DNA of 64,000 nt from Terebella lapidaria (taxonomy: Eukaryota; Annelida; Polychaeta; Terebellida; Terebellidae): NCBI GenBank assembly GCA_949152475.1, contig OX424563.1, forward strand, positions 16,093,001 to 16,157,000. The letters are read 5' to 3'. The notes beneath the pieces are model-generated. The model was not told the origin of the DNA. It saw only the letters and a list, made by a program, of their open reading frames with translations, and did no database searches. Numbering within the stretch: the stretch's first letter is position 1; every line of letters starts with the position of its first letter. This document shows, piece by piece, positions 23,244-62,700 of the stretch. The translations under genes were made by a program, and so were the position numbers.

Positions 23244-23321
23244 GTCTGTGCGTTACGATGATCACACGAGCTTGTGTATCGTCTCATTGGCCATTTGAAA
23301 ACGGTATAGAATACACTCTTT

Positions 23322-25960
23322 ACCTTGCCTAAGCGGACTGACGTAACGCGCGTTACGTTGATCCAAGATGGCGAATGGTAGGTTTAGCTTCAACAAGATT
23401 CCCAGCTTTTGGCTATTTTACAAAAGTAAAATTGAACTACAGAAAGTAGGCCTATGAGTTTGCACGACACTTAAAAAATCTCAATCATTGCAGTATTTGC
23501 ATGGCTGATTAAAAAAAAGCCTGGACTAGCGTAACGCGGCTACTTACGTACGGGTAGTCATGATTAATGAATGCTTTCAGCAATGCTAAACCAGAATCCA
23601 CGCATTCGAATTTCTTTGTTACGTTTTTTGTTCCGAACTTCCATGTTGTTCACATGGATCTATTTCAGAGAATAGCACACACGGCGAGTTGCCTATGAAG
23701 TGTACGGCAGTATATACACGCATATGTTATGTTCCCAAACCAAAAATGCTTCAACAAAAATAACCAGTAAATCGAAGCGTTACCCTGTGATAACTATTTC
23801 CATCTGTTACTGTCGCCTCCATCGGGAGACGACATATTCAAATACGATTAAAACGCCCAATGATTGGATGCGTTTGTCCGGTCCTGCTATATTCCCGCAG
23901 CATTTGGTTACAATCACTAAGGAAAATATTCTCGTTAGTTTGCATAATGTTTCAGATTTATTCATGCCTGATAACCGCAAAATGAGATCGAGAACTTCAA
24001 ATCTACACAACCTGTATGGAACTATATTGATAGCTATATTTATGGAACTATATTGATATTGAAATCTGGCAAAAGGGATCAAAACACCAGTCTCTGTATT
24101 TATTTTTCTGCACCGGAGACAGGGTGCACAATGCTATGCGGAAAATATTTTATAGCTGATTTTGTCGCGTTCGATGCAGTTTGACGAAATATTTCACCCA
24201 AAGATGTTGTTTTGCAAGTCGAGTACTATATTACAGATGTGAATATAGGAGCCTTAAATGTACAAGTTGTAGCATGTTAAATTTATATTGACGAGCCACG
24301 TGTACCGTGCATATAGTTTTTTGCAAGAGTGGGAGCTGTAGGGGTTTCGAATCGATATGAGTCTGGCGAAGGTCTGGGAATTGTTCCATTTTGGGTCCAG
24401 AAAGTCTCTACTTTTGTTATCCACAGAATAGTGGAAACCCTTTGAATATAATAGCAGTATGTCATGACTGCAATGGTCCAGACTCAAGTATTATTACTAC
24501 TTGAAATATTACAAATCGGTAATTTCAGCTGGTGACCCTTACATTCTCGACCTCGGGCGATAATGGGGAATTTTGATCATACGACCATTGGTCATATAGC
24601 AAACAATAGAGAATTGACCACAGAAAAATACAAAATTATTAGGGATAATTAATTAGGAATATGAACAGAGTTATTGCAACTTTTCGATTTTGACTCTTCT
24701 GTGACTTTGACCTTGTCGTTCAATATTGAGCTGTACTTTGAGCTGTATTATTACTACTTGAAATATTACAAATCGGTAATTTCAGCTGGTGACCCTTACA
24801 TTCTCAACCTCGGGCGATACCGGGGAATTTTGATCATACGACCATTGGTCATATAGCAAATAATAGAGAATTGACCACAGAAAAATACAAAATTATTAGG
24901 GATAATTAATTATGAATATGAACAGAGTTATTGCAACTTTTCGATTTTGACTCTTCTGTGACTTTGACCTTGTAGTTCAATATTGAGCTGTAAAGTATTC
25001 ACTGTACTGTTCCTATTATCAAGGCACATCTCATGGACGAAAACGGTATAAACAGATTGAAAACTGGCTTCACAATATGGTCTCGAATCTCAGAACACTC
25101 ACAAGTGTTGAAATCGTCATCCCAACGTTTCGACATCGGGCGATAATTGAGAGTTTTGGTCTTAAGACCATCGGTTGTTCGCCATACGATCGGGAATTGG
25201 ACAAAGAAAAATACCAAAAGGTTGAAAATTTAATATTAATTCGAACCGGAGTTATAGCCAATTATGTGATTTTCTTTTTTCCGTTGCCATGGCAACCGTT
25301 TTTATCCGATTTCGACAGAATTCGAAAGGGATGGAGTCACTACCAAAGCACTCTAGCCCAGGTTCAGATCGATTTCAGATCGAACAGACTTTTTACAATC
25401 GAGTTATGAGCGCAGACATGTGCATTGCACTGAAACGTCGCTGACAAAAAATAACCGAAATCGTGACCCCCAATTTTTCAACATCGGGCGATAATGAAGA
25501 GTTTTTGTCGTACGACCATCGGTCGTACACCATACGATCGGGAATTGGCCAAATAAAAATAAAAAAAATAGTTGAAAAAATTAATATCAAGTACAACCGG
25601 AGTTGGAGCCAATTATGTGATTTTCACTTTTTCCGTTGCCTTGGAAACCATTTTCATCCGATTTTGACCGAGCCACTGACATTCTGCTTCATCCCTATGA
25701 ATTTGTATCCGAGTTATGCCCGCGGACAGACAAACAGACAGACAGTCCCAAATGCAATACCCTCGCCCCCCCCCCCCCCTACGGGGGCGATCATGTTTCA
25801 AGGTATAGAGCGTTTTTTATAGTGTGCCTGATGAATGCTTCCGGGCGGATAAGACCAGTGTTTTCTTGGATTTTTGCGACAAATCTTGTCGAAGCTAAAC
25901 CTGCCTTTCGCCATCTTGGATCAACGTAATGCGTGTTACGTTAGTCCGCTTCGGCAGGGT
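23322..25960. mobile_element. 2.6-kb DNA element with 79-bp terminal inverted repeats
   Basis: The left end (23322-23400) and right end (25882-25960) are imperfect inverted repeats of 79 bp. Both include AAGCGGACT, a TTACGTTGATCCAAG segment and AAGATGGCGAA. The left repeat holds the perfect palindrome ACGTAACGCGCGTTACGT (23340-23357). The interior has no transposase-like frame; it has tandem units with CGGGCGATAAT and CGACCAT words, and in this copy a run of C near 25770. It is a non-autonomous element or the remains of one. A shorter copy is at 33552-35983. It inserted before the 10-kb duplication. Confidence 0.8.
24491..25004. repeat. 257-bp tandem repeat inside the TIR element
   Basis: Two units start with TTATTACTACTTGAAAT at 24491 and 24748. 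Two looser relatives follow at about 25130-25440 and 25440-25800. Those units share CATCGGGCGATAAT and CATACGATCGGGAATTG words. The same pair is present in unit B from 34721. Confidence 0.8.
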
Positions 25961-26986
25961 GCTCTTGTTCATTATGACACTATTTCTAGGTCAACCTACA
26001 CATCGTATGTAATATTTTTTTGTTGTTGCCGACGAACACTCGGGCGCAACTACTTGATAAAAGTTAACGTGTTATACAAACCACATCAGGCGAGTCTATA
26101 TATAGTTCAAACATTAGTATCATGGGTATTCGTGAGGGGTCCAACGTCCTAGCGTATCATTTAAAACGTGACGCTTGTGCGTTCGTCCTTGTACATTATC
26201 ATATACGTATGTACTTATATTATCCAACAGACGACTCTTTCTCATTGATTGCTATGGGAGTTTCTGGTGGACACCGTTTGAATTTGTTTACATTATGGCC
26301 ATTCCCGGTACTTTGTAACTTGTCGCACCGCGATTCCAGCTCCCGCATATCGATGGTTGAGCGAAAACTACGTTAGAATGGAGGTTAGCTGAGTGACGCA
26401 CACAAAAAAAGAAAGCCAGCTGCTGGTACTGTGTTTCACTCATCCATTTAACTCACACAACGATTTTTTCAGACATATTTATCTGTTGTTGATGTGGAAT
26501 AGTTTCTTCCCAGTGCAGTTTTATTTCGCAGCGTTAAAGTGGCATAATCCGTTTTGGGAATTTGTTCTATATCATGTACAGTATATAGAGTAATTAACCG
26601 AGGCGTTAGCCAAGGTCAATATGACATTTCTGAATAAATATGACATTTCAATAAAATATTGATCAGTCTAGCACGGAAAGCCAATAAGTCAAAGACCACT
26701 GTGCTTTGTGACACGAGAAAAGACATGACAATATTATGTGACAATTCACAATGCGTTCTAGTTTGTGATATCAACCTTGACGTACCGAGTAATATATCAT
26801 GTCGACACATGGCTTGCATTCTGTATAACTAGTCTCGCGAACACAAATTGGCGTATACGACGCAGACATATTAGAACTATAAGTAATACAAATGTGTTTA
26901 CGATTAATTCTTGCAAGTGGGCGTGACCGGAGTTGTATCTGTAAATGTGATTATCAATTATTAATTACATATATATACTTGTGCTT
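25961..26986. other. Conserved duplicated flank, no gene recognised
   Basis: It matches 35984-37684 apart from the insertion there. Open frames of up to about 90 codons exist, but they look like chance. Apparent conservation between the units only reflects recent duplication. Confidence 0.5.
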
Positions 26987-28044: not shown

Positions 28045-30475
28045 TTATGTTCAAAATATTCGGCATACATCATTTCCTATACGTCCACAATTTAGTCCCA
28101 AGCTGTAAAGCGGATAATAAGCGAGATGTCAGCCACTTTGTGCTTTGACCTTTAAAATGGGGTCAAAGGTCAAATTCAAGGTCATCAGAATATTCAGCAT
28201 ATATCATTTCCTATATGTCCACAATTGATTCCTAAACTGATAAGTCGATAACAAGCGGCTATTTATTAGCCATTTTGTGCTTTTACCTTGAAATGACATC
28301 AAAGGTAAAACTCAAGGTCATGACAATAATCAACATATATCATTTCCTATGTGTCCACGATTGATTCCTTGTCTATAATCTCAATATTAAGTGAGATATT
28401 AGGCATTATGTTTCCCATCATGAAGCATAGGAGAATTTAACATGGGAAAGACCATTTGAGCACCCTTCCAGAAAATGAAAATGGCCGCCACACGCAGACC
28501 AGCGATTCAGGGGCAACAAAACTTATACACACCACAGAGGTATGTGAGGGCAATCTTTTGAAGCACACATAGGCCCAAGGGATCTGTAGCTTACCGGCTA
28601 GCCAGAAAGTGATCGGACCGATCGTCTGGTAACTTCAAGGTTACAAGTATATTCAGCATATATCATTTCCTATATGTCCACAATTGATTCGTAATCTGTA
28701 AAATTGACAACAAGTGAGATATGCGCCATTTCGTGCTCTGACCTTGAAAATGAGGTCAAATGTCATATCCAAAGTCACGAAAAATATTCAGTATATATTA
28801 TTTCTTATATGTCCACAATTGATTACCAAGCTGAAAAGTAAATAATAAGCGAGATATCAGCCATTTTGTGCTCTGATCCTGAAAATGAGGTCAAAGGTCA
28901 AATTCAAGGTAATCAGAATATTCAGCATATATCATTTCCTATATGCCCACAATTGATTTCTAAGCTGTAAAGTCGATAATAAGCAAGATATTAGACATTT
29001 TGTGCTCTGACGTTGAAAATGAGGTCAAAGATCATATTCAAGGTCATGAGAATATTCAGCATAAATCATTTCTTATATGCCCACAATTAATTCAGAAACT
29101 GTAAAGTGAATCATAAGCGAGATATTAGCCATTTTGAGCTCTGACATTGAAAATGAGGTGAAACGTCAAATTCAAGGTCATCAGAATATTCGGCATAGCT
29201 GTTTATATCATTTTATATCATTTTCTATATGTCCAAATTTCATTTCTAAGCTGTAAAGTTGATAATAAGCGAGATAATAGCCATTTTGTGCTTTGACCTT
29301 GAAAATTAGGTCAAATGTCGATTTTAAGGTCGTCAGAGTATTCGAGATATATCATTTCCCATATGTCCACGATTGATTCCTAAGCTGTAAAGTCGATAAT
29401 AAGCGAGATATTAGCCATATTGTGCTTTGACCTTGAAAATAGGTCAAAAGTAACATTGAAGGTCATGAGAATATTCAGCTTGTATCATTTCTCATATGTC
29501 CACATTTGATTCCCAATCTGTAAAATGAATAATAAGCGAGATAATAGCGATTTTGTGATCTGATCTTGAAAATGAGGTCAAAGGTCAAATTCATGGTCAT
29601 CAGAATATTCGGCATATATCATTTCCTTCATGGTCACAATAGATTTCTAAGCTGTAAAGTCGATAATAAGCGAGATATTAGCCATTTTGTGCTCTGACCT
29701 TGAAAATGAGGTCAAAGGTCAAATTCAAGGTCATCAGACTTTTTCGGCATATATCATTTCATATATGTCCACAATTGATTCCTAAGCTTTAAAGTCAATA
29801 ATAAGCGAGATATTAGCCATTTTGTCCTGTGACCTTGAAAATGAGATCAAAGGTCAAATATCAAGGTCATCAGAATATTCGGCATATATCATTTTTTATA
29901 TGTCCACAATTGATTCCTAAACTGTAAAGTCGATAATAAGCAAGATATTAGACATTTTGTGCTCTGACCTTGAAACCGAGGTCAGAGGTCAAATTCAAGG
30001 TCACGAGAATATTCAGCATATATCATTTCCTATATGTCCACAATTGATTCCTAGTCTCTAATCTCAATATTAAGTGAGATATTAGACTTATTGTGTACCA
30101 TTCCAAAGCAGAATTTAACATGGGAAAGTCGCATTTTGGCCGAGTTTGGGCCCAAAATGGCCCACTTCGAGCAATTAAAAGGCAACGAAATTTATACATG
30201 TCACAGAGGTACATATGAGGAGTGTTATGCATGAATAAGAAAAAAAGTTACTGAACATATTTTGAGAAAACGACCGTCAAAGTCCAAAATTTGCTATTTT
30301 TATAGCAAAATGGTTGTCATTTTTAAAAAAAATCGAAAATCAGAAAACTAAAAACTCTTTTTCTTGGAAATATTTTTAGGTATTTTTGTGCAAAATTTCA
30401 GAAATATTCCATCGTAAACTTTAAAGATAAAAATGTGAACGGACGGACGGACGGACGGACGACGGACCCAACGAA
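28045..30475. repeat. 134-bp satellite, block A
   Basis: Monomers of about 134 bp contain TCAAGGTCA, a TATATCATTTCCTATATG segment, ATTGATTCCTAAGC, GATAATAAGCGAGATATTAG and TGACCTTGAAAATGAGGTCA. Many carry AGGTCAAAGGTCA, a perfect DR1 arrangement. Non-monomer modules with ATTTAACATGGGAAAG interrupt (near 28430) and close (30100-30440) the block. The block ends in GGAC repeats. It belongs to the hairpin-ended family seen at 2289-3270. Confidence 0.9.
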
Positions 30476-32162: not shown

Positions 32163-33473
32163 TCATATGGTGCCGGGAAGAAGATAGTCCTCATCCCAAT
32201 CGTCTGGGACAGGAATGCCCAGTTCTTGAGATGTCCTGTTCATGACGTCACGGATTTCTTGAGTGATGTGTAGATTACGCAGTACTACCTTGCTCAGACT
32301 TTCCCTGCTTATGGTTGAGCCACGCTGAGAATCCAATTTGAATGCCTTCACGGCATCTTCGATCAAGTCAGATGACAATCCACAGATTTTGAACACCTTG
32401 GCCACTGTTTGTATTGGGTTTTTGCATGCCTGTTCATAGCGGATACCATGGAGTACAGCCTCACGATTTCTGATATATTCTTTGACGGCTGTTCCCTGCA
32501 ACCAGTAGCCCCATTCTATGTCCATCGACAGTTTTGGATACCAGCCTTGAAAGAATTCGTACATGTAGCCACAGAACCTCATGTGGTACGCCGCTATTCC
32601 AGGAACTCGTGAGAGCAGTCGAAAAACAACAGCACATGAAGGTATTCCTTCAACACATTTTCTGACAGAAAGCGCAACTTGCACAGGGTCACGGTAAATG
32701 AAAAATTGTATGACCTCGGGGAACGCTTCTTGTATCAAGGCAGCACTAGGGAAAATCATGGGCACGGGCTTGATGATGCACGCCAGAAATTGGCCGCTCG
32801 ACTGTTTGCACAGGAGTGTGATCACATCCCTGATCAATTTTACCTTCTTATCTCTGCCCCAATCTTTTCGCAATTCAAACAGATGCATAGCCTTGGTTAA
32901 CGCATGTGGCTCACCAAGAGTAAGGCATCTTCCTGTCGACCTAAAGACATCAGTCATCAAAGTACCACCACATCGCCCAACATTCTGCAAGATGACCAGC
33001 TTAGTAGGCCTATGTCTCATTGTGATGCGCTCAGCCAGCTTGTGGAAAGATTCCAGAGGCATTGCGATGATGTACATGGGGGAGCTCTCAAAAGCCATTG
33101 ATGCAAACGGGTACGAATCTGGACCTTTTGCGCCTGGAGCAAGCTGCATGAATAGAGCATCTTTGTCTGTTATTTGCAGAAGATGTACATCATCTCGTAA
33201 CACGTACTCAGGAGTTGTGAAGGTGTGATGTACCAGAATGTAGTCGGTGATTTGTGTCATGATGAACACGTCAAGTTTGTAATGGAACAGAATACGCATA
33301 ATGTGTGCAGATGAGTCGTAGTTTCCCGGCTCTCGGGACATATGCCTCTGATGCAAAACTCCAGTCCACCACCAAATTATAGTTTGGAAGAAACTATAAA
33401 ACAAGCTGAATCCGTAAAATGATATCCAGAGCAAGACAGACGATAAAAGACGTAGGTTTCCGAGTAAATCCAT
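32163..33473 (-). CDS. Sulfotransferase-like membrane protein, copy 3
   Basis: A single-exon, intact gene of 436 residues, 426 of them identical to copy 2. Every one of the ten nucleotide differences from copy 2 changes an amino acid. Cys280, Val396 and Asn412 are found only here. Gln74 and Tyr303 agree with copy 4 instead of copy 1, which hints at sequence exchange between paralogues. The P-loop-like, phosphate-binding-like and membrane segments are unchanged, so the protein should be functional if it is expressed. The TIR element again starts 78 bp upstream. The CCAAT box and the candidate polyadenylation signal at 31769-31774 are conserved. Confidence 0.8.
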   Translation of the reverse strand: MDLLGNLRLLSSVLLWISFYGFSLFYSFFQTIIWWWTGVLHQRHMSREPGNYDSSAHIMRILFHYKLDVFIMTQITDYILVHHTFTTPEYVLRDDVHLLQITDKDALFMQLAPGAKGPDSYPFASMAFESSPMYIIAMPLESFHKLAERITMRHRPTKLVILQNVGRCGGTLMTDVFRSTGRCLTLGEPHALTKAMHLFELRKDWGRDKKVKLIRDVITLLCKQSSGQFLACIIKPVPMIFPSAALIQEAFPEVIQFFIYRDPVQVALSVRKCVEGIPSCAVVFRLLSRVPGIAAYHMRFCGYMYEFFQGWYPKLSMDIEWGYWLQGTAVKEYIRNREAVLHGIRYEQACKNPIQTVAKVFKICGLSSDLIEDAVKAFKLDSQRGSTISRESLSKVVLRNLHITQEIRDVMNRTSQELGIPVPDDWDEDYLLPGTI

Positions 33474-33551
33474 GTCTGTGCGTTACGATGATCACACGAG
33501 CTTGTGTATCGTCTCATTGGCCATTTGAAAACGGTATAGAATACACTCTTT

Positions 33552-35983
33552 ACCTTGCCTAAGCGGACTGACGTAACGCGCGTTACGTTGATCCAAGATG
33601 GCGAATGGTAGGTTTAGCTTCAACAAGATTCCCAGCTTTTGGCTATTTTACAAAAGTAAAATTGAACTACAGAAAGTAGGCCTATGAGTTTGCACGACAC
33701 TTAAAAAATCTCAATCATTGCAGTATTTGCATGGCTGATTAAAAAAAAGCCTGGACTAGCGTAACGCGGCTACTTACGTACGGGTAGTCATGATTAATGA
33801 ATGCTCTCAGCAATGCTAAACCAGAATCCACGCATTCGAATTTCTTTGTTACGTTTTTTGTTCCGAACTTCCATGTTGTTCACATGGATCTATTTCAGAG
33901 AGTAGCACACACGGCGAGTTGCCTATGAAGTGTACGGCAGTATATACACGCATATGTTATGTTCCCAAACCAAAAATGCTTCAACAAAAATAACCAGTAA
34001 ATCGAAGCGTTACCCTGTGATAACTATTTCCATCTGTTATTGTCGCCTCCATCGGGAGACGACATATTCAAATACGATTAAAACGCCCAATGATTGGATG
34101 CGTTTGTCCGGTCCTGCTATATTCCCGCAGCATTTGGTTACAATCACTAAGGAAAATATTCTCGTTAGTTTGCATAATGTTTCAGATTTATTCATGCCTG
34201 ATAACCGCAAAATGAGATCGAGAACTTCAAATCTACACAACCTGTATGGAACTATATTGATAACTATATTTATGGAACTATATTGATATTGAAATCTGGC
34301 AAAAGGGATCAAAACACCAGTCTCTGTATTTATTTTTCTGCACCGGAGACAGGGTGCACAATGCTATGCGGAAAATATTTTATAGCTGATTTTGTCGCGT
34401 TCGATGCAGTTTGACGAAATATTTCACCCAAAGATGTTGTTTTGCAAGTCGAGTACTATATTACAGATGTGAATATAGGAGCCTTAAATGTACAAGTTGT
34501 AGCATGTTAAATTTATATTGACGAGCCACGTGTACCGTGCGTATATTTTTTTTGCGAGAGAGGGAGCTGTAGGGGTTTCGAATCGATATGAGTCTGGCGA
34601 AGGTCTGGGAATTGTTCCATTTTGGGTCCGGAAAGTCTCTACTTTTGTTATCCACAGAATAGTGGAAACCCTTTGAATATAATAGCAGTATGTCATGACT
34701 GCAATGGTCCAGACTCAAGTATTATTACTACTTGAAATATTACAAATCGGTAATTTCAGCTGGTGACCCTTACATTCTCGACCTCGGGCGATAATGGGGA
34801 ATTTTGATCATACGACCATTGGTCATATAGCAAACAATAGAGAATTGACCACAGAAAAATACAAAATTATTAGGGATAAATAATTATGAATATGAACAGA
34901 GTTATTGCAACTTTTCGATTTTGACTCTTCTGTGACTTTGACCTTGTCGTTCAATATTGAGCTGTACTTTGAGCTGTATTATTACTACTTGAAATATTAC
35001 AAATCGGTAATTTCAGCTGGTGACTCTTACATTCACGACCTCGGGCGATGATGGGGAATTTTGATCATACGACCATTGGTCATATAGCAAATAATAGAGA
35101 ATTGACCACAGAAAAATACAAAATTATTAGGGATAATTAATTATGAATATGAACAGAGTTATTGCAACTTTTCGGTTTTGACTCTTCTGTGACTTTGACC
35201 TTGTAGTTCAATATTGAGCTGTAAAGTATTCACTGTACTGTTTCTATTATCAAGGCACATCTCATGGACGAAAACGGTATAAACAGATTGAAAACTGGCT
35301 TCACAATATGGTCTCGAATCTCAGAACACTCACAAGTGTTGAAATCGTCATCCCAACGTTTCGACATCGGGCGATAATTGAGAGTTTTGGTCTCAAGACC
35401 ATCGGTTGTTCGCCATACGATCGGGAATTGGACAAAGAAAAATACAAAAAAGGTTGAAAATTTAATTATGTGATTTTCTTTTTTCCGTTGCCATGGCAAC
35501 CGTTTTTATCCGATTTCGACAGAATTCGAAAGGGATGGAGTCACTACCAAAGCACTCTAGCCCTAGTTCAGATCGATTTCAGATCGAACAGACTTTTTAC
35601 AATCGAGTTATGAGCGCAGACATGTGCATTGCACTGAAACGTCGCTGACAAAAAATTTTCAACATCGGGCGATAATGAAGAGTTTTTGTCGTACGACCAT
35701 CGGTCGTACACCATACGATCGGGAATTGGCCAAATAAAAATAAAAAAATAGTTGAAAAAATTAATATCAAGTACAACCGGAGTTGGAGCCAATTATGTGA
35801 TTTTCACTTTTTCCGTTGTTTCAAGGTATAGAGCGTTTTTTATAGTGTGCCTGATGAATCCTTCCGGGCGGATAAGACCAGTGTTTTCTTGGATTTTTGC
35901 GACAAATCTTGTCGAAGCTAAACCTGCCTTTCGCCATCTTGGATCATCGTAATGCGTGTTACGTTAGTCCGCTTCGGCAGGGT
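33552..35983. mobile_element. DNA element with 79-bp terminal inverted repeats, unit B copy
   Basis: The inverted repeats are at 33552-33630 and 35905-35983. It is about 200 bp shorter than the unit A copy. Losses include about 25 bp near 35465, a short piece near 35655 and about 155 bp near 35818, the last removing the C-run segment. These are deletions in B or gains in A. Confidence 0.8.
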
Positions 35984-36042
35984 GCTCTTGTTCATTATGA
36001 CACTATTTCTAGGTCAACCTACACATCGTATGTAATATTTTT

Positions 36043-36735
36043 GCTCGGGGGCCATTAGGCCGCCGAGCATATTATGTGGCGAGAAAATTGCCGGATGCGA
36101 TGCATGTTTTATAGCTGCTTTATATAGTTAGTGTGCTTGCTTCTGCGCATAGATGATCCAAGCCATGTGCTTATGTTTACCACAGAGAGAGAGAGAGAGA
36201 GATTTTGTTTCATGCTTATCATTCTGACCCCAATTCTGGTTCTTGCAATATCTTGTATATCGTGTATATAGTAGGCTACAAACAGTCCAATGTTGTGCCA
36301 TGGTATTCTAGCGTGTAGCGGTGTATTAAATAAAGTTATGTGAGGGTGGTTGGATGTAGATGTTAATTACTTCGTTAATGAAGGTGTTATGATGAACATG
36401 AAAAAGTAAGTTCACTTCCATAGCATGTACGTTAACATCTAACCGTTTGGCAAAAAAAATCACATTTTAAACTTTGGTATAAGTACAGCTAAATCAAAAT
36501 GTTTTTAAAAAAATCCCGAACTTGTATTTGTATTGTACAATACTGCAATGAATGTACATTGTGACTGCTCATCTAAAGATATGTAAATGGACACATTTCA
36601 GAAACATTCAAAATAAAACTTTTGTGGGAAAAAAAAACTTCGTCAATTCATGAATTACACATGCTACCAATACCATCCATTCAACAAATACTTCCCCCGA
36701 GTTTTGACTGTTTTTTTAAAAACAGCCAACTTGTT
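36043..36735. mobile_element. 0.7-kb insertion present only in unit B
   Basis: Unit A reads straight across this site. The insert starts with a hairpin (GCTCGG pairing with CCGAGC, 36043-36068) and has CTCGGGGG at 36044-36051 with its complement CCCCCGAG at 36694-36701. Near the right end CTGTTTTTTTAAAAACAG forms a second hairpin. An AG microsatellite lies at 36184-36202. No coding capacity. The class is unknown. Confidence 0.7.
36184..36202 (+). repeat. AG microsatellite
   Basis: A run of GA dinucleotides inside the unit B insertion. Confidence 0.9.
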
Positions 36736-37684
36736 TTGTTGTTGCCGACGAACACTCGGGCGCAACTACTTGATAAAAGATAACGTGTTATACAAACCAC
36801 ATCAGGCGAGTCTATATATAGTTCAAACATTAGTATCATGAGTATTCGTGAGGGATCCAAAGTCCTAGCATATCATTTAAAACGTGACGCTTGTGCGTTC
36901 GTCCTTGTGCATTATCATATACGTATGTACCTATATTATCCAACAGACGACTCTTTCTCATTGATTGCTATGGGAGTTTCTGGTGGACACCGTTTGAATT
37001 TGTTTACATTATGGCCATTCCCGGTACTTTGTAACTTGTCGCACCGCGATTCCAGCTCCCGCATATCGATGGTTGAGCGTAAACTACGTTACGTTGGAGG
37101 TAACTCTGAGTGACCCACACAAAAAAAGAAAGCCAGCTGCTGGTACTGTGTTTCACTCATCCATTTAACTCACACAACGATTTTTTCAGACATAATTATC
37201 TGTTGTTGATTTGGAATAGTTTATTCCCAGTGCAGTTTTATTTCGCAGCGTTAAAGTGGCATAATCCGTTTTGGGAATTTGTTCTATATCATGTACAGTA
37301 TATAGAGCAATTAACCGAGGCGTCATCCGAGGTCAATATGACATTTCTGAATAAATATGACATTTCAATAAAATGTTGATCAGTCTAGCACGGAAAGCCA
37401 ATAAATCAAAGACCACTGTGCTTTGTGACACGAGAAAAGACATGACAATATTATGTGACAATTCACAATGCGTTCTAGTTTGTGATATCAACCTTGATGT
37501 ACCGAGTAATATATCATGTCGACACATGGCTCGCATTCTGTATAACTAGTCTCGCGAACACAAATTGGCGTATACGACGCAGACATATTAGAACTATAAG
37601 TAATATAAATGTGTTTACGATTAATTCTTGCAAGTGGGCGTGACCGGAGTTGTATCTGTAAATGTGATTATCAATTAATAATTA
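36736..37684. other. Duplicated flank, no gene recognised
   Basis: It matches about 26018-26966 in unit A at high identity up to the LINE insertion. Nothing gene-like beyond short open frames. Confidence 0.5.
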
Positions 37685-44269: not shown

Positions 44270-47200
44270 TTTGATCTTCGACCTCATTTTCAAGGTCAGA
44301 GCACAAAATCGCGGTTATCTCGCTTATTATTCACTTTACAGCTTAGAAATGAAATTTGGACATATAGAAAATGATATAAAATGATATAAACAGCTATGCC
44401 GAAAGAAGATTACTGTACGATATTTTTCCGCCATGATAGTTTTATCACTATGACGTCAAACGTTCTGGAGATTTTGGAGAAATGTCAGCCATATTACAAA
44501 GTTTATATTGCACCTGGTTTTAAATTAATAGATATCAAACGCGTATATCATATGAAGGGATACACTGTCTATCAATACACACAGGTTCATCCTAATCGAA
44601 TGACGATTTTAAAGTCGATAATAAGCGAGATATTAGCCGTTTTGTACTTTAGTTTTGAAAATGAGGTCAAAGGTCAAATCCAAGGTTATCAGAATATTTG
44701 GACTATATCCTTTCCTATATGTACACAATTGATTCCTAAGCTGTAAAATCGATAATAAGTGAGATATTAGAAATTTTGTACTCTGACCTTGAAAATGAAG
44801 TCGATGGTCAAGGTTATCAAAATATTCGGCATACATCATTTCCTATAGTCCACAAATTAGTCCCAAGCTGTAAAGTGGATAATTAGCGAGATATCAGCCA
44901 TTTTGTGCTTTGACCTTTAAAATGAGGTCGAAGGTCAAACTCAAGGTCATCAGAATATTCAGCATATACCATTTCCTATATGTCCACAATTGATTCCTAA
45001 ACTGATAAGTCGATAACAAGCAGCAATTTATTAGCCATTTTGTGCTTTGACCTTGAAAATGAGATCAAAGGTAAAATTCAAGGTCATGACAATAATCAGC
45101 ATATATCATTTCCTATGTGTCCACGATTGAATCCTTGTCTCTAATCTCAATATTAAGTGAAATATTAGGCATTATGTGTCCCATTATGAAGCATAGGAGA
45201 ATTTAACATGGGAAAGACCATTTGAGAAACGTTCGGGAAATGAAAATGGCCGCCACACGCAGACCAGCGATTCAGGGGCAACGAAACTTATACACATCAC
45301 AGAGGTATGTGAGGGCAATCTTTTGAAGTAAACATAGGCCCAAGGGACCTGTAGCTTACCGGCTAGCGAATAGGTGATCGGTCCGATCGTCTGGTAACTT
45401 CAAGGTTACAAGTATATTCAGCATATATCATTTCCTATATGTCCACAATTGATTCGTAAGCTATAAAGTTGACAACAAGTGAGATATGCGCCATTTCGTG
45501 CTCTGACCTTGAAAATGAGGTCAAAGGTCATATCCAAAGTCACGAGAATATTCAGTATATATTATTTCTTATATGTCCACAATTGATTACCAAGCTGAAA
45601 AGTAAATAATAAGCGAGATTTCAGCCATTTTGTGCTCTGACTTTCAAAAGGAGGTCAAAGGTCAAATTCAAGGTAATCAGAATATTCAGCGTATATCATT
45701 TCCTATATGTCCACAATTGATTTCTAAGCTGTAAAGTCGATAATAAGCAAGATATTAGACTATTTGTGCTCTGACGTTGAAAATGAGGTCAAAGATCATA
45801 TTCAAGGTCATGAGAATATTCAGCATATATCATTTCTTATATGTCCACAATTGATTCCCAAACTGTAAAGTGAATCATAAGCGAGATATCAGCTATTTTG
45901 TGCTCTGACCTTGAAAATCAGGTGAAACGTCAAATTCAAGGTCATCAGAATATTCGGCATAGCTGTTTATATCATTTTATATCATTTTCTATATGTCCAA
46001 ATTTCATTTCCAAGCTGTAAAGTGAATAATAAGCGAGATAATCGCGATTTTGTGCTCTGACCTTGAAAATGAGGTCGAAGATCAAATTCAAGGTCATCAG
46101 AATATTTGGCATATTTCGTTTCCTTCATGGTCACAATAGATTTCTAAGCTGTAAAGTCGATAATAAGCGAGATATTAGCCATTTTGTGCTCTGACCTTGA
46201 AAATTAGCTCAAAGGTCAAATTCAAGGTCACGAGAATATTCAGCATATATCACTTCCTATATGTCCACAATTGATTCCTAAGCTGTAAAGTCAATAATAA
46301 GCGAGATATTGGCCATTTTGTGCTCTGACCTTGAAAATGAGGTTAAAGGTCAAATTCAAGGTCACGAGAATATTCAGCATATATCATTTCCCATATGTCC
46401 ACAAGTCTCTAATCTCAATAGTAATTGGGATATCAAGAACATTGTGGCCCATTATAAAGCATAGGATAATTTAACATGGGAAAGTCCTATTTGGGCCCAG
46501 TACAAAAAATCAAAATTCCCGCCACATGCAGACCGGCGATTCAAGAGCATCGAAACTTTTACACATTATAAGGATACATGAGGGAAACATTTTGAATCTA
46601 AAATCTCAAAACTGATCAGACAGTTTCTGAGAAAATAATTTTCAAAGTTGAAAACATACAAAAACGGCCATTTTCGGCATAAAAATGACCGCCAAAACTG
46701 CATAATCGATTCAATAAAAATTAGCCCAATGGGCTAGAAAGGTTACCGGAGAAATATACAGAGTTAAGCCGAGAAAGTTGAAGGTCAAACTCAAGGTGAC
46801 CACTGAAATCGCCATATCTCTAACCTTGAAAATGGGATCAAAGGTTAAATTCTAGATCACCAAACTATTCAGCATACATCATTTCCTATATGTTCACTAT
46901 GGACCCCTAAGCTGTAAATTTGATGATAAGCTAGATATAAGCCATTTTGTAATCTGACTTTGAAAATAAAATGATTGACCTTGAAATTTAGGTCAAAGGT
47001 CAAAGTCAATATCATTAAAATGTTCAGAATATATATCATTTCCTATATGTTCACAATTGATTCCTAAGCTGTAAAGTCGATAATAAGCAAGATATTAGCC
47101 ATTTTGTCCTGTTGACCTTGAAAATGAGGTCAAAAGTCAAATTCAAGGTCACTAGAATATTCAGCATATATCATTTCCCATATGTTCACAATTGATTCCT

Positions 47201-49520
47201 AAGCTGTAAAGTCCATAATAACCCGAGATATTAGCCATTTTATCCTGTGACCTTGGAAATGAGGTCAAAGGTCAAATTCAAGGTCACGAGAATATTCAGC
47301 ATATATCATTTCCTATATGTTCACAATTGATTCCTGAGCTGTAAAGTCGATAATAAGCGAGATATTAGCCATGTTGTCCTGAGACCTTGAAGATGAGGTC
47401 AAAGGTCAAATTCAAGGTCATCAGAATATTCGGCGTATATCATTTCCTATATGTCCCCAATTGATTCCTAAGCTGTAAAGTCGATAATAAGCGAGATATT
47501 GGCCATTTTGTCATGTGACCTTGAAAATGAGGTCAGAGGTCAAAATCAAGGTCATGAGAATTTTCAGCATATATCATTTCCTATATGTTCACAATTGATT
47601 CCTAAGCTGTAAAGTCGCTAATAAGCAAGATATTGGCCATTTTGTCCTGTGACCTTGAAAATGAGGTCAAAGGTCAAATTCAAGGTCATCACAATTTTCA
47701 GCATATATCATTTCCTATATGTTCACAATTGATTCCTAAGCTGTAAAGTCGCTAATAAGCAAGATATTGGCCATTTTGTCCTGTGACCTTGGAAATGAGG
47801 TCAAAGGTTAAATTCATGGTCACGAGAATATTCAGCATATATCATTTCCTATATGTTCACAATTGATTCCTAAGCTGTAAAGTCGCTAATAAGCAAGATA
47901 TTGGCCATTTTGTCATGTGACCTTGAAAATCAGGTCAAAGGTCAAATTCAAGGTCATGAGAATTTTCAGCATATATCATTTCCTATATGTTCACAATTGA
48001 TTCCTAAGCTGTAAAGTCGCTAATAAGCAAGATATTGGTCGTTTTGTCCTGTGACCTTGAAAATGAGGTCAAAGGTCAAATTCAAGGTCACGAGAATTTT
48101 CAGCATATATCATTTCCTATATGTTCACAATCGATTCCTAAGCTGTAAAGTCGCTAATAAGCAAGATATTGGCCATTTTGTCCTGTGACCTTGAAAATGA
48201 GGTCAAAGCTCAAATTCAAGGCCACGAGAATATTCAGCATATATCATTTCCTATATGTTCACAACTGATTCCTAAGCTGTAAAGTCGATAATAAGCGAGA
48301 TATTAGCAATTTTGTCCTGCGACCTTGGAAATGAGGTCAAAGGTCAAATTCAAGGTCACGAAAATATTCAGCATATATCATTTCCTATATGTTCACAATT
48401 GATTCCTAAACTGTAAAGTCGATAATAAGCGAGATATTAGCAATTTTGTCATGTGACCTTGAAAATGAGGTCAAAGGTCAAATTCAAGGTCACAAGAATA
48501 TTCAGCATATATCATTTCCTATATGTTCACAACTGATTCCTAAGCTGTAAAGTCGATAATAAGCGAGATATTAGCCATTTTGTCCTGTGACCTTGAAAAT
48601 GAGGTCAAAAGTCAAATTCAAGGTCACGAGAATATTCAGCATATATCATTTCCTATATGTCCACAATTCATTCCTAGTCTCTAATTTCAATATTAAGTGA
48701 GATATTAGGCTTAATGTGTGCCATTATAAAGCATAGGAAAATTTAACATGGGAAAGTCACATTATTTTGGGCCGAGTTTGGGCCCAAAATGGCCCACCTC
48801 AAGCGATTCAAGCGCAACGAAATTTATACATGTCACAGGGGTACATATGAGGAGTGTTATGCATCAATGAGAAAAAAAGTTACTGAACAGATTTTGAGAA
48901 AACGACCATCAAAGTCCAAAATTGGCCATTTTTAGACGAAAACGGCCGTTCTGACCTTGAAACCGAGGTCAGAGGTCAAATTCAAGGTCACGAGAATATT
49001 CAGCATATATCATTTCCTATATGTCTACAATTGATTCTTAGTCTCTAATTTCAATTTTAAGTGAGATATTAGGCTTAATGTGTCTCATTATAAAGCATAG
49101 GAGGATTTAACATGGGAAAGTCCCATTTGGGCCGAGTTTGGGCCCAAAATGGCCCACTTCGAGCGATTCAAGGGCAACGAAATTTATACATATCACAGGG
49201 GTACATAGGAGGAGTGTCATGCATCAATAAGAAAAAAAGTTACTGAACAGATTTTGAGAAAACGACCATCAAAGTCCAAAATTGGCCATTTTTCGACAAA
49301 AACGGCCGCTATTTTGAAAAAAATGCGAAAATCAAAAAACTAAAAAAAATCTTTCCTGGAAATATTTTTAGGTATTTTTGTGCAAAATTTCAGAAATATT
49401 CGCCTGTAAATTTTAATGATAAAAATGTGGACGGACGGACGCTGGACGACGGACGACGGACGCCGGACCACGGACGACGGACGCAACGCCACGGCAATAG
49501 GTTATCGGACCAAAGGTCCG
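44270..49520. repeat. 134-bp satellite, block B
   Basis: A longer relative of block A. Between 47260 and 48480 exact AGGTCAAAGGTCA motifs occur at 47262, 47396, 47664, 47932, 48066, 48334 and 48468, all at multiples of exactly 134 bp. An internal element end (TAGCCCAATGGGCTA then GGTTACCGGA, 46723-46750) shows that at least two hairpin-ended elements are joined. The right end is GGAC repeats followed by GGACCAAAGGTCC (49498-49510). The ATTTAACATGGGAAAG modules occur near 45190, 46450, 48735 and 49105. Confidence 0.9.
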
Positions 49521-49613: not shown

Positions 49614-50933
49614 TCATATGGTGCCGGGAAGAAGAAAGTCGTCATCCCAATCATCTGGGACAGGAATGCCCAGTTCTTGAGATGTCCTGGTCATGACGTC
49701 ACGGACTTCTTGAGTGATATGTAGCTCATGCAGTACTGCCTTGCCCAGACTGTCCCTGCTTATGGTTGAGCCACGCTGAGAATCCCATCCAAAAGCCTTC
49801 ACGGCATCTTCGATTAAGTCATGCGACAATCCACAGATTTTGAACATTTTGGCCACTGTTTGTGTTGGGTTTTTGCATGCCTGTTCGTAGCGTACACCAT
49901 GAATTTGGAGCCCAGCCTCAAGACATTTGATGTATTTCTGGACGGTCTTTCCCTGGGTCCAGTAGCCCCATTCTATGTCCATAGATACCTTCGGATACCA
50001 GCCTCGACAAAATTCATACATGTAGCCACAGAACCACAAGTGGTACGCCACCATTCCAGGAATTTTTGGTAACAGTCGAAATAGCACAACAGAAGAAGTT
50101 ATTCCTTCAAAACATTTCCTGAGAGAAAGTGCAACTTGCACAGGGTCACGGTAAAGGAAGAACTGCGTTGCATCGGGGAAGGCTTCTATTAAAAAGTCAT
50201 TATAAAGCATAACCAGGGGAAGGGGCTTGATGACGTAGGCCAAAAATTCGCCACTCGAGTTACTAGAGCGTTTAAACAGGAGTGTGATGACATCCCTGAT
50301 TAATTTGACTTTCTTTTCTCTGCTCCAGTCTTTATGCGAGTCAAACAGATGCATTGCTTTGGTCAGAGCCTGTGGCTCTCCGAGAACAAGGCATTTTCCT
50401 GTCGACCTGAAGACATCAGTCATCAAAGTACCACCACATCGCCCGACACTTTGCAAGATTACCAGTTTGGTGTCCCTCATTGTGATGCGCTCAGCCAACT
50501 TGTGGAAAGATGCCAGAGGCATTGCGATGATGTACCTGGGGGAGCTCTCAAAAGCCATGGATGCAAACGGATACAATTCTGGTCCCTTCGCGCCTGGAGC
50601 AAGTTGCATGAATATGGCATCTTTGTCTGTGATTTGCAAAAGATGGACATCATCTCGCAACACATATTCAGGCGCCGTAAAGTTGTGATGGACCAGAATG
50701 TAGTCGGTGATTTGTGTCATGATGAACACGTCAAGTTTGTAATGGAACATAATACGCATAATATGAGCAGAAGACTCGTAGTTTCCCGGTTCCCTGGACA
50801 GAAGCCTCTGACGTAGAACACCTGTCCACCACCAAAGTATAGTTTGGAAGAAACTGTAGCACACGCTGAATATTTGGAATGATATCCAAAGCAAGACAGA
50901 TGATAAAACACGTAGATTTCCGAGTAAATCCAT
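49614..50933 (-). CDS. Sulfotransferase-like membrane protein, copy 4
   Basis: A single-exon, intact gene of 439 residues and the most diverged of the four. The membrane segment, GRCGGTL, RDPVQVALS and RYEQACKNP are all conserved. It has NSS inserted after KRSS, and LQIHG in place of LHG before RYEQ, and it lacks the HRPT insertion of copies 2 and 3. No transposon lies directly upstream. The 3' flank runs within about 90 bp into the end of the satellite block. Divergence concentrated outside the binding motifs suggests the enzyme has been kept under selection. Confidence 0.8.
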   Translation of the reverse strand: MDLLGNLRVLSSVLLWISFQIFSVCYSFFQTILWWWTGVLRQRLLSREPGNYESSAHIMRIMFHYKLDVFIMTQITDYILVHHNFTAPEYVLRDDVHLLQITDKDAIFMQLAPGAKGPELYPFASMAFESSPRYIIAMPLASFHKLAERITMRDTKLVILQSVGRCGGTLMTDVFRSTGKCLVLGEPQALTKAMHLFDSHKDWSREKKVKLIRDVITLLFKRSSNSSGEFLAYVIKPLPLVMLYNDFLIEAFPDATQFFLYRDPVQVALSLRKCFEGITSSVVLFRLLPKIPGMVAYHLWFCGYMYEFCRGWYPKVSMDIEWGYWTQGKTVQKYIKCLEAGLQIHGVRYEQACKNPTQTVAKMFKICGLSHDLIEDAVKAFGWDSQRGSTISRDSLGKAVLHELHITQEVRDVMTRTSQELGIPVPDDWDDDFLLPGTI

Positions 50934-51008
50934 GTCTATGCGTTAAGATGACCACACAAGATTATGCTATCTTTTCTTAAATTATACACCCTTGTTCATC
51001 GTGAAGTA

Positions 51009-52060: not shown

Positions 52061-52230
52061 ATTAGCAATTTTATATTCAGTAATCTATACCTACACATAC
52101 TCACACTTAATACTTCAGATGACCCATATTACGTGACTTTCTTGCATGTTCCATGTAAACTGTCCAATGACTTCTCATATTTGAACTGAAGACAACGTCA
52201 CAGTGAACTGGTGGATGCTGACTGGTTCTA

Positions 52231-52939
52231 TCTACGGAAGCCCATATGTGACATGCGCGTAAAAATTTTCTATATGTTCTTTCCAGCAAAAAGCTAGCAC
52301 GTTCGAACGTGGAAGCATTTAACACTATCACGTTCGCACGTGGAAACAACTAGGGCTACTGCGTTCACACGTGGAAAGTCCGAGGTTACCACGTTCACAC
52401 GTGGAAGCATTTAACGCTTCCACGTTCGAACGTGGAAACTTCAGGAGCTACCACGTTCGCACGTGCAAAGATTTGGATGTGGTAGCCTCAAATGCTTCCA
52501 CGTATGAACGTGGTAGCTTTGAAACTTTCTACGTGTGAACGTGGAAACCTACATCTTTCTACGTTCGAACGTGGTAGGTTTTAAAGTTTCTACGTGCGAA
52601 CGTGAAAGCATATGATGTTTCCACGTGTGAACTTGGTAGCTTTGAAACTTTCTACGTGTGAACATGGAAACCTACAACTTTCTACATTAAAACTTGATAG
52701 GTTTTAAAGTTTCTACGTGCGAACGTGATAGCTTCGGACTTTCTACTTGTGAACGTTGAAGCCTACATCTTTCTACGTGCGAACGTGGTAAGTTTCAAAG
52801 TTTCCACGTGCGAACGTGATAGCGCTATATGCTTTAACGTGCGAACGTGGTAGTTATGAACTTCGTGCGAACGTGCAAGGTTTTTAATAGAAAAACACCA
52901 ATTTTTCCTCCGCACATGTCACCTATGGGTTTCCATATC
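52231..52939. mobile_element. Inverted-repeat element carrying a phased palindrome array
   Basis: The ends are inverted repeats: GGAAGCCCATATGTGACATG at 52236-52255 against the complement ending at 52934, with weaker pairing outward. Inside, about twenty near-palindromic sites of the form ACGTNNGAACGT start at 52299, 52330, 52361, 52391, 52422, 52453, 52500, 52531, 52561, 52592, 52623, 52654, 52684, 52715, 52745, 52775, 52806, 52837 and 52863. Spacing is 30 or 31 bp apart from two exceptions. No coding capacity. Looks like a MITE with a specialised interior. Confidence 0.75.
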
Positions 52940-52952
52940 TATCAGCATGTGG

Positions 52953-61200: not shown

Positions 61201-61886
61201 TGAAAATCTGAATGCAAAGAATCTACATGAATGTGGCTCCAATATGGTGATTCATGTTATGATTTTACGGACAGGATAAACGAATATAGAATATAACTCT
61301 CCGAAACCAATTCGTATGTGTGTCGCTTAGTCACCCTGCAAAGAATGTTGGTTATTAACACATTACATGCACAAGCCATATGTAACCATCAGTTTGTCCC
61401 TTCCCTCACATGGGACATGGGCACTGGTTCTGAGCCAAATCACACTAACAATAGAATCTACAGCAGTCCGGATATTAGAATTGCGAATTGCCGGAAGTAC
61501 CAGAGACAATGAGAAAGATTACATGGACATAATCTATTATAATTGTGAACATGAAAGGTACAGTCATTAGATTCGAGAAAGAAACTTTGCGAAAACAAAG
61601 TATGATGGGAAATTAGTGGTCGTAGAGCGTCAAAAATCGGAACCAGTCTCTGAATTGTATACTATTATCCTTTTTATTATAATTCCTTTTTATAGCGCCA
61701 CGTCAAAACACTTGAAATGAACGCTGGTAGCTAGAGAGTTACCATATATTTGAGTCCCGGAGTGGTACGAAAGTCATCGTTCTGGTACTGGTAGTCTCTA
61801 CTGGTCGCAGGGCTCCGGCAAGGGCTCTAAATTCCGGGGCCTGCGTCAGTACATGAAAATATTTAATTTGGAGTCTGTAATTGTTT

Positions 61887-62233
61887 CTACGGAGCCCCTA
61901 AGGGGACATACGGAGCCCCTAAGAGGACACACCTGTGAGTGAAAAAAAAATTTTTTTCGCATTCGAACGCGATGTTTTCGCGTTCCCTCGCGAGCTTTTC
62001 GCGTTCGAACACGATGTTTTCGCGTTACCTCGCGAAGTTTTCGCGTTCCCTCGCGAAGTTTTCGAAAACGCGAAAAATTGATTGTGTTGACGCCCATGAC
62101 TTCTGAGAAGGTTTTGCTACAAGATCGCGTTCGAACGTGAAAAGATCGCGTGGGAACGCAAAAAGATCGCAAGGGAACGCGAAAAAAAAATTGTTTCTTA
62201 ACTTTTGGTTGTGTCCCCTTAGGGGCTCCGTAG
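61887..62233. mobile_element. 347-bp MITE with perfect 22-bp inverted repeats and 21-bp palindromic units
   Basis: The outer 22 bp at each end are exact reverse complements; they begin CTACGGAGCCCC and contain the palindrome CCCCTAAGGGG. Inside the left half, units with CGCGTTCGAACGCG or TTCGCGTTCCCTCGCGAA words start at 61958, 61979, 62000, 62021, 62042 and 62063, exactly 21 bp apart. The right half has GATCGCG units at 62123, 62144 and 62165, also 21 bp apart, in opposite sense. No coding capacity and no clear target-site duplication. Confidence 0.85.
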
Positions 62234-62270
62234 ATATCATATCAGACCTTCAATATACTATATTAATACT

Positions 62271-62700
62271 ACCCTGCATGTTTATTGGTACAGTGGATTT
62301 TTCCCCGAGGAAGAGATTACTGCCCGAGGCGTAAGCCGAGGGTGGTCTTGTCTCAGGAGGGGAATAATCCGCGGTACCAATATACATACAGGGTTGTATT
62401 TATTATATCATACCGAATGTATGTTTTGATAAAACGTCTTTGGCGAATGATGCTGCCGGTTAGTATTATATAAATACAACCATGTATGTATATTGGTACA
62501 GCGGATTATTCCCCGAGGGAGAGATTACTCCCCGAGGAAGAGATTACTGCCCGAGGCGTAAGCCAAGGGTGATCTTGTCTCAGGAGGGGAATAATCCGCG
62601 GTTCCAATATACATACAGGGGTTGTATTTGTTATATGATATCGAATGTCTGATTTGATAAAACGTCATTGGCGATTGATGCTGCCGGTTAGTATATCAAA
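62271..62700. repeat. Tandem pair of hairpin elements
   Basis: Each unit is an inverted repeat of about 36 bp per arm (62271-62394 and 62478-62623). The arms carry TATTGGTAC and GGATTATTCCCC words, with a loop containing CCCGAGGCGTAAGCC. A shared spacer follows (TTTGATAAAACGTC, GATGCTGCCGGTTAGTAT). Units are 207 and 223 bp. The second loop has an extra GAGATTACTCCCCGAG. Likely MITEs duplicated together with flanking DNA. Confidence 0.8.

Follow-up and report, generated by a model that had tools for sequence, protein, structure and literature searches.

The stretch of Terebella lapidaria DNA analysed in this study (64,000 nucleotides at full length, referred to as the window) contains two non-coding elements with terminal inverted repeats (TIRs), whose features are collected in Table 1. 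The window also holds retroelement open reading frames (ORFs; reverse transcriptase and integrase). On the minus strand, ORFs of 448 aa (225-1568) and 442 aa (49617-50942) match sulfotransferases; one of these matches exceeds the Pfam cut-off and the other falls short of it. Two segments, 21936-26655 and 32166-37372, are apparently mutual copies about 10.2-10.7 kb apart, judging by the corresponding placement of their 439-aa ORFs, of double repeats of 257 bp and of short repeats. Tandem arrays of about 134-bp units were noted at 28634-30085 and 44610-48708; each unit contains repeated TGACCT/AGGTCA half-sites, locally as AGGTCAAAGGTCA, and we presume a resemblance to nuclear-receptor response elements. 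The short repeated inverted pieces with TTGGTACAGNGGATTNTTCCCCGAGG at 62262-62620 are perhaps another small mobile element.

Table 1. Features of the two non-coding elements, with positions counted from the first nucleotide of the window
Feature	Positions	Strand	Remarks
Whole non-coding transposon copy, family 1	52233..52937	+	705 bp, TA..TA ends; TIR pair and target duplication
Left target site duplication, TCTATC	52227..52232		6/6 identical to right flank
Right target site duplication, TCTATC	52938..52943		pairs with left flank
Left TIR, 23 bp, family form TAYGGAAGCCCATAGGTGACATG	52233..52255	+	1 mismatch to family form
Right TIR	52915..52937	-	1 mismatch to family form on minus strand
Left arm, 6 sites	52298..52465	-	GAACG on minus strand, toward left tip; steps 31,31,30,31,31; 14-bp core starts 52298, 52329, 52360, 52390, 52421, 52452
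Centre, flip of site handedness	52466..52498		flanking sites 47 bp apart, start to start
Right arm, 13 sites	52499..52875	+	GAACG on plus strand, toward right tip; steps 31,30,31,31,31,30,31,30,30,31,31,26; 14-bp core starts 52499, 52530, 52560, 52591, 52622, 52653, 52683, 52714, 52744, 52774, 52805, 52836, 52862
Second element, family 2	61888..62232	+	similar TIR TACGGAGCCCCTAAGGGGACA; TCGCGTTCGAACGCGA-type sites every 21 bp

When up to five mismatches to a 14-bp core were allowed, 19 sites were identified in the first element, and the 18 steps between them comprise 16 of 30 or 31 bp, the central one of 47 bp and a last one of 26 bp. This agrees well with the preliminary description, which counted about twenty sites at 30- or 31-bp intervals with one 47-bp gap and a 26-bp final step. 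The inverted repeats that it placed around the array (52231-52939) are also present, although the element itself is slightly narrower (52233-52937). The sequence ACGTNNGAACGT, with at most one mismatch, was matched 30 times on both strands of the 64-kb window (2.95 matches expected; largest number in 100 shuffles, 9), and 28 of these matches lie inside the family-1 array, the other two being located in the second element at 62127. The handedness of the sites switches at the 47-bp step, with CACGTTC kept in the left units and GAACGTG in the right ones. Each unit contains two ACGT cores or nearly so, some of which read CACGTG. The two arms are complementary (73% over 165 nt).

The family is widespread in the genome (761.6 Mb searched). 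The 709-bp query produced 828 first-look candidates, 40 of which were scored, while the family-1 TIR (at most one mismatch) revealed 951 ends, against none for the reversed control. From the fetched loci we obtained a sample of 67 two-ended elements, 11 of them without the left flank. A perfect 6-bp target duplication was present in 38 of the 56 elements with both flanks, and 10 more showed a 5/6 match. In most copies TAYGG...CCRTA ends adjoin the duplication, but the TA..TA result is partly one of choice, as the copies were found through the TAYGG pattern. The TIRs, the 6-bp duplications and the number of ends confirm the earlier suggestion that the array moves as a unit. Short, non-coding, bounded by TIRs and a target duplication of fixed length, and present in many copies, the family-1 element has all the features of a MITE. 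Three elements (L042, L043 and L045) have common flanks and a common target duplication and represent one insertion within a segmental duplication on contig 6. Two of them (L043 and L045, with flanks as in L042) were dropped from the alignment, indel and tip-distance tests and retained in the target-duplication, step, orientation and half-site counts; elements longer than 900 bp were excluded from the orientation, half-site and tip-distance counts.

The preliminary description had reasoned that drifting spacing in other copies would fit a plain young tandem repeat. The spacing is kept: over the 67 elements, 1052 of the 1188 steps are of 30-32 bp and a further 59 are exactly 47 bp, i.e. the central step. 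The left arm consists mostly of six sites, and is followed by the 47-bp step and a right arm of variable length. The detected sites number from 5 to 31 per element, and copies often differ by whole units; there are also small copies with only six sites (L065 and L074). Tandem Repeats Finder recognized further blocks of about 61, 92 (91/92) and 123 bp, which indicates that units were duplicated in groups. Block duplication of this kind also produces regular spacing and accounts for part of the regularity observed.

Related arrays occur in several sister families. The family-2 element of the window (L086) lacks a target duplication, its flanks agreeing at only 3/6 positions, and its left end carries the TIR twice. 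This element (61880-62240) is apparently part of a tandem duplication, together with C9:16158050 and C9:16161223 beyond the window; the three copies, at intervals of about 3.17 kb, are 100, 97 and 85% identical to the query. The family-2 form of the TIR, common to families 2, 3 and 4, was found at 135 exact ends genome-wide. In 30 fetched family-2 loci, steps of 21 bp (228 cases) predominate over those of 20 bp (17) and 22 bp (2), the remaining steps being scattered and including chance matches in the flanks. In the same loci a 67-bp centre was recorded 20 times, and an end pair with a perfect 6-bp duplication was present in 17 of the 30.

Six elements picked by size from the 135-end list share the TIR of family 2 and contain different arrays. 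Four of them (family 3) carry ATTTCGTTCCCTCGAAAT-type units, with a period of 20.1-20.7 bp in 11 of 12 fitted runs and of 21.9 bp in one run of seven. The other two (family 4) carry ATTTCGAGCGCTCGAAAT-type units, spaced in L119 by a mean of 20.7 bp (alternating 19 and 22-23) and represented in L121 by three sites only, at 23 and 21 bp. The 6-bp duplication is perfect in two of the six, matches at 5/6 in one and is unmatched in three. The interior of family 7 was read in one element of 145 bp (L014:197-341; TIR TACGGTGCCCCTGATAG, duplication ACAATA), which lies beside a family-1 copy and contains four CTTCGTGCGAACGA-type sites, 21 bp apart and in one orientation; the TIR pattern of this family has 365 matches genome-wide (control 0). 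Two more TIR variants constitute families 5 and 6. In all, palindromes recur about every 20-21 bp in four further array types with similar ends. The sequence CGTNCGAACG is present in families 1, 2, 3 and 7 (a minority of the units in the case of family 3), and the bases surrounding it differ.

The same periods are visible in pairs of sites. Exact copies of CGTTCGAACG separated by 4-32 bp formed 95 forward pairs genome-wide (control 0), and among the 50 listed, within the allowed spacing of 14-42 bp, 12 are 21 bp apart, 10 are at 30-31 bp, 27 at 41-42 bp and one at 23 bp. For family 7, among the 100 listed of 128 pairs (allowed range 16-42 bp), 56 are spaced by 21 bp, 41 by 42 bp and three otherwise. 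Since the pairs share ancestry and the families are probably of common origin, these counts are not independent trials. The change between a two-turn and a three-turn period, with the core retained, is a notable feature of the group.

The ends allow a tentative classification. According to a paper on the kindred superfamily IS481EU (PMC10045372), TA..TA termini are a constant feature of complete IS3EU families, whose target duplications are usually of 6 bp, and GingerRoot elements have 6-bp duplications and mostly TA..TA termini. Judging by its TA..TA termini and the 6-bp target duplication (seen in families 1 and 2), the MITE most likely belongs to IS3EU/GingerRoot. Both groups have similar ends and duplications, and family 1, with no transposase in the copies read, fits either of them.

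A DDD/E transposase related to IS3/IS481 is characteristic of autonomous IS3EU/GingerRoot copies. No transposase is coded in any copy read, and no autonomous copy was found. A whole-genome search with the IS481 transposase profile gave 5964 candidates, 67 of which were scored (best 102 bits; cut-off 224 bits). We take the matches to be retroelement integrases, judging by their long ORFs, and by eye none was located inside a TIR pair among the listed pairs of families 1, 2 and 7. Two large family-1 elements, L047 (2412 bp) and L048 (1791 bp), considered as candidates for autonomy, proved to be interrupted copies with no ORF longer than 117 aa. Of 15 single TIR ends (L071-L085, with 4 kb downstream), 10 were copies whose second end, 296-872 bp away, has more mismatches; for L077, L078, L081, L082 and L084, no stop-to-stop ORF of more than 197 aa was present in the 4 kb. 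The best remaining candidates for an autonomous partner are two family-7 TIR pairs, one spanning 19327801-19330058 of contig 2 (2.26 kb) and the other 56287667-56290426 of contig 3 (2.76 kb).

The sites have a definite relation to the ends of the elements. In family 1 the GAACG half faces the nearer tip in either arm. When GAACGYG motifs were counted (palindromic sites both ways, arms split at the element midpoint), 764 were directed toward the nearer tip and 207 away from it in family 1, with 219 versus 113 in family 2; the midpoint is not the flip point of family 1, and the outward counts for this family are therefore conservative. In family 7, an enclosing TIR within 400 bp was recognized for 20 of the 28 rows listed on contigs 1-3; these 20 rows come from 16 loci and are all outward, 16 of them at 19 or 20 modulo 21 from the tip. 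One of the eight others, at C1:83165743, was located 40 bp beyond a TIR instead of within it. Family 3 departs from this pattern, the motif occurring in both orientations within one arm.

The distance of the array from the tip is also nearly constant. The outermost site lies 63-65 bp from the tip in 46 of 60 family-1 elements at each end, and 48-51 bp from it in family 2 (21/28 left and 22/28 right ends). The distance is 55 and 55 in the two elements of family 4, whose matching ends are long; family 3 was left out of this comparison, as the site search matched the ends themselves. The outermost family-1 site is a perfect CGTTCGAACG at 47/60 left and 46/60 right ends, compared with 67 of 976 inner sites.

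A further regularity concerns the sites themselves. For family 1 we compared sites with spacers in an alignment of the elements with a length of 560-880 bp (58 of the 67), 56 of which were used after dropping the two with the flanks of a third. Mutations private to one copy were taken as post-insertion, and these singletons are equally frequent in sites (0.0146 per cell) and spacers (0.0152), from which it follows that inserted copies decay neutrally. Among the 19 consensus units, spacers diverge by 0.362 per position and sites by 0.107, a value 3.4 times lower. After normalisation to the private rate, a ratio of 0.30 is obtained, and an equally low value was reached by 0.125% of permutations over the 30 unit positions; when a 14-bp block was slid round the unit, this occurred in 2/30 placements, the true one included. 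Eleven positions are invariant in all 19 consensus units, T N3 ACGT NN GAACG N4 A (in the 30-bp frame, T 5, ACGT 9-12, GAACG 15-19 and A 24). Variants common to at least two copies are likewise rarer in sites (0.0168) than in spacers (0.0392).

In these alignments it is the sites, not the spacers, that are preserved over rounds of transposition, as would be expected if they matter during the movement of the element and not after it. The preliminary description was thus right that spacers vary around constant sites, as far as units are compared with each other. Spacers as conserved as the sites, which it associated with a plain young tandem repeat, are found for post-insertion mutations among copies and not between units.

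The helical geometry is less simple than first supposed. A lattice fitted to the family-1 consensus has a period of 30.74 bp in the left arm (residual 0.24 bp) and 30.77 bp in the right (0.39 bp). A step of 30.75 bp makes three turns at about 10.25 bp/turn; at 10.5 bp/turn it is 0.75 bp short, and the fitted period drifts by about 26 degrees from one site to the next. The centre of 47 bp amounts to about 4.5 turns, and the two arms are therefore out of phase, on opposite faces. The original proposal that all sites face one side of the helix fails at this centre and is affected by the drift at 10.5 bp/turn; a single-face arrangement can hold at best within one arm.

Selection on the spacing was assessed from indels. 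There are 30 private spacer indels (versus 257 substitutions) and 13 private site indels. In a simulation built on the 30 spacer indels, unconstrained steps are expected to have an SD of about 3 bp, and the observed 0.55 was equalled in 2.5% of simulations, which lends moderate support to selected spacing. The order of steps in the right arm is not significant, since shuffled orders phase as well in 6.5% of cases (P 0.065). The evidence for selection on spacing is weaker than that for selection on sites.

We consider it probable that the arrays consist of binding sites for a transposase, or for a partner protein, within a MITE, with two or three helical turns from one site to the next. The interior of the element would then consist of two mirror-image subterminal arrays of the dyad site described above, its copies directed at the nearer tip and set at intervals close to a whole number of turns. 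The protein bound may be a transposase, supplied by an unseen autonomous relative, or one that cooperates with it. Binding would probably begin at the near-perfect outermost site, at its near-fixed distance from each tip, and might then extend cooperatively on one face of each arm. This could raise the local concentration and the specificity of the transposase, and aid the pairing of the two ends.

A role of the arrays in end recognition during transposition is suggested by the conservation of the sites, their neutrality after insertion, the special outermost sites, the tip distance and the orientation. Against this model we count that no transposase or autonomous copy was found, that the order of steps gave P 0.065, that the simulation of spacing gave only moderate support, that block duplication also produces regular spacing, that a second placement of the 14-bp block has an equally low ratio, that one family-7 row lies outside a TIR and that orientation is mixed in family 3. 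Two full arms are also not needed, given the six-site copies L065 and L074 and the 145-bp element of family 7 with four sites in one orientation.

A more specific reading, which we regard as possible though rather unlikely, is that a helically phased polymer of transposase uses the arrays as tracks, and that the period evolves in whole-turn jumps, from 21 to 31 bp. A dimer would load on the perfect outermost palindrome, at its fixed tip distance, and more dimers would join alongside at every two or three turns, giving one filament per arm, of opposite polarity; the filaments would then pair. If this is true, sister families in one genome record the geometry of a protein polymer, with the contact to the GAACG core remaining constant.

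Less probable is that the array is a plain tandem repeat within a MITE, grown by slippage or unequal exchange, without function and with a spacing inherited from its first unit. Several observations are in line with this: the number of units varies freely (5 to 31 sites), the blocks of about 61, 92 and 123 bp represent unit-level duplication, post-insertion mutations are neutral, private indels are found in sites (13) as well as in spacers (30), and the step-order test was not significant. Such a repeat fails to explain why sites diverge so much less between units when their mutation rate is equal to that of spacers, CpGs included. It also does not account for outermost sites that are perfect far more often than inner ones, or for the motif's recurrence in families 1, 2 and 7, where it is mostly outward and repeated at steps of 21 or 31 bp. 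We regard this explanation as weakened by the contrast between sites and spacers, and read the conservation of sites amid diverging spacers as pointing to selection for putative protein binding.

The bound protein could instead be a host transcription or chromatin factor, which would open chromatin or place the element in germline-active or unmethylated DNA. ACGT cores are read by factors of the bHLH and bZIP types. The two ACGT cores, or nearly so, of each family-1 unit, some of them CACGTG, would suit such a factor, as would the CpG-rich sites, in which the singleton rate at CpGs is mildly raised (0.0179 versus 0.0127 at other site positions). We nevertheless find this improbable, since the unit types read in families 2, 3 and 7 rest on CGTNCGAACG with other outer bases and not on CACGTG, transcription would be of little benefit to a non-coding element, and orientation and distance are fixed relative to the tips.

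Selection on DNA or RNA folding, as also proposed in the preliminary description, with hairpins, cruciforms or fold-back of the arms aiding excision, replication slippage or small-RNA production, is very unlikely: the sites are near-palindromic, the arms largely complementary and a single mirror pair out of 15, at positions 3 and 26 of the frame, exceeds the shuffles (13 complementary cells versus 9.25, P 0.03), but there is no overall compensatory change across the dyad in the 19 consensus units (103 complementary cells versus 104.4 in shuffles, P 0.69), for which reason we reject the hairpin, and the GAACG half is retained (intact in 843/1120 family-1 and 234/300 family-2 sites) while its mirror half is often lost (351/1120 and 130/300 intact). 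Of the first interpretation of this locus, mobility, spacing and site conservation thus stand, whereas the single helix face and folding do not.

The binding-site model can be set beside several known systems. Short non-coding elements with internal tandem arrays reportedly exist in bivalves (the Pearl and Donax MITEs). The long inverted arms of family 1 (165 nt, 73% complementary), composed of 31-bp subrepeats, resemble those of Foldback-like elements; its target duplication is of 6 bp and not of the Mutator-type 8-10 bp, and “foldback” thus describes its architecture only. In Tetris, according to the relevant part of PMC4079207, units are of about 220 bp and target duplications of 8-10 bp, compared with about 31 bp and 6 bp here. 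Table 1 of PMC8268682 includes two oyster satellites labelled DNA/IS3EU, with monomers of 690 and 129 bp.

Multiple binding sites at transposon ends are documented for Galileo, whose THAP domain binds multiple sites in tandem-repeated TIRs, and the authors suggest, in the section concerned, that these confer specificity on the transposase (PMC3688188). The three THAP sites reported there for Galileo-G lie about 70, 570 and 710 bp from the tip, and not at short helical steps as in the elements studied here. A likeness is also offered by piggyBat (piggyBac superfamily), in which, as described in part of PMC11707139, an imperfect palindrome is repeated from the tip and the transposase binds three palindrome-containing left-end sites, the third of which restricts activity. 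More sites therefore need not mean more activity. The piggyBat sites are three in number, about 44 bp apart, confined to the left end and associated with different termini (PMC11707139), whereas the arrays studied here have up to 31 sites, are present at both ends and have steps of about 21 or 31 bp.

Among the best literature matches, mostly from outside subscription journals, none describes helically phased palindrome arrays in IS3EU-type elements. Four of five motifs had no match in this literature, and the matches of CGCGTTCGAACGCG are, by title, not about transposons. The elements belong to known kinds, namely MITEs carrying tandem repeats, Foldback-like elements and multi-site transposon ends (Galileo and piggyBat); the number of sites, the helical phasing and the 21/31 switch look new.

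To conclude, a few extra transposase sites are common at the ends of eukaryotic transposons. In the case described here, several families within one genome have kept the core and a spacing close to whole turns, while the spacers, the number of sites and the period have changed. If the binding-site model is correct, these families would constitute a natural variant series for the assembly of a phased transposase oligomer on DNA. They also suggest that what appears to be a “tandem repeat” can be an array that is under selection while the element transposes and neutral once it has inserted; conservation between copies, taken alone, would miss this distinction.
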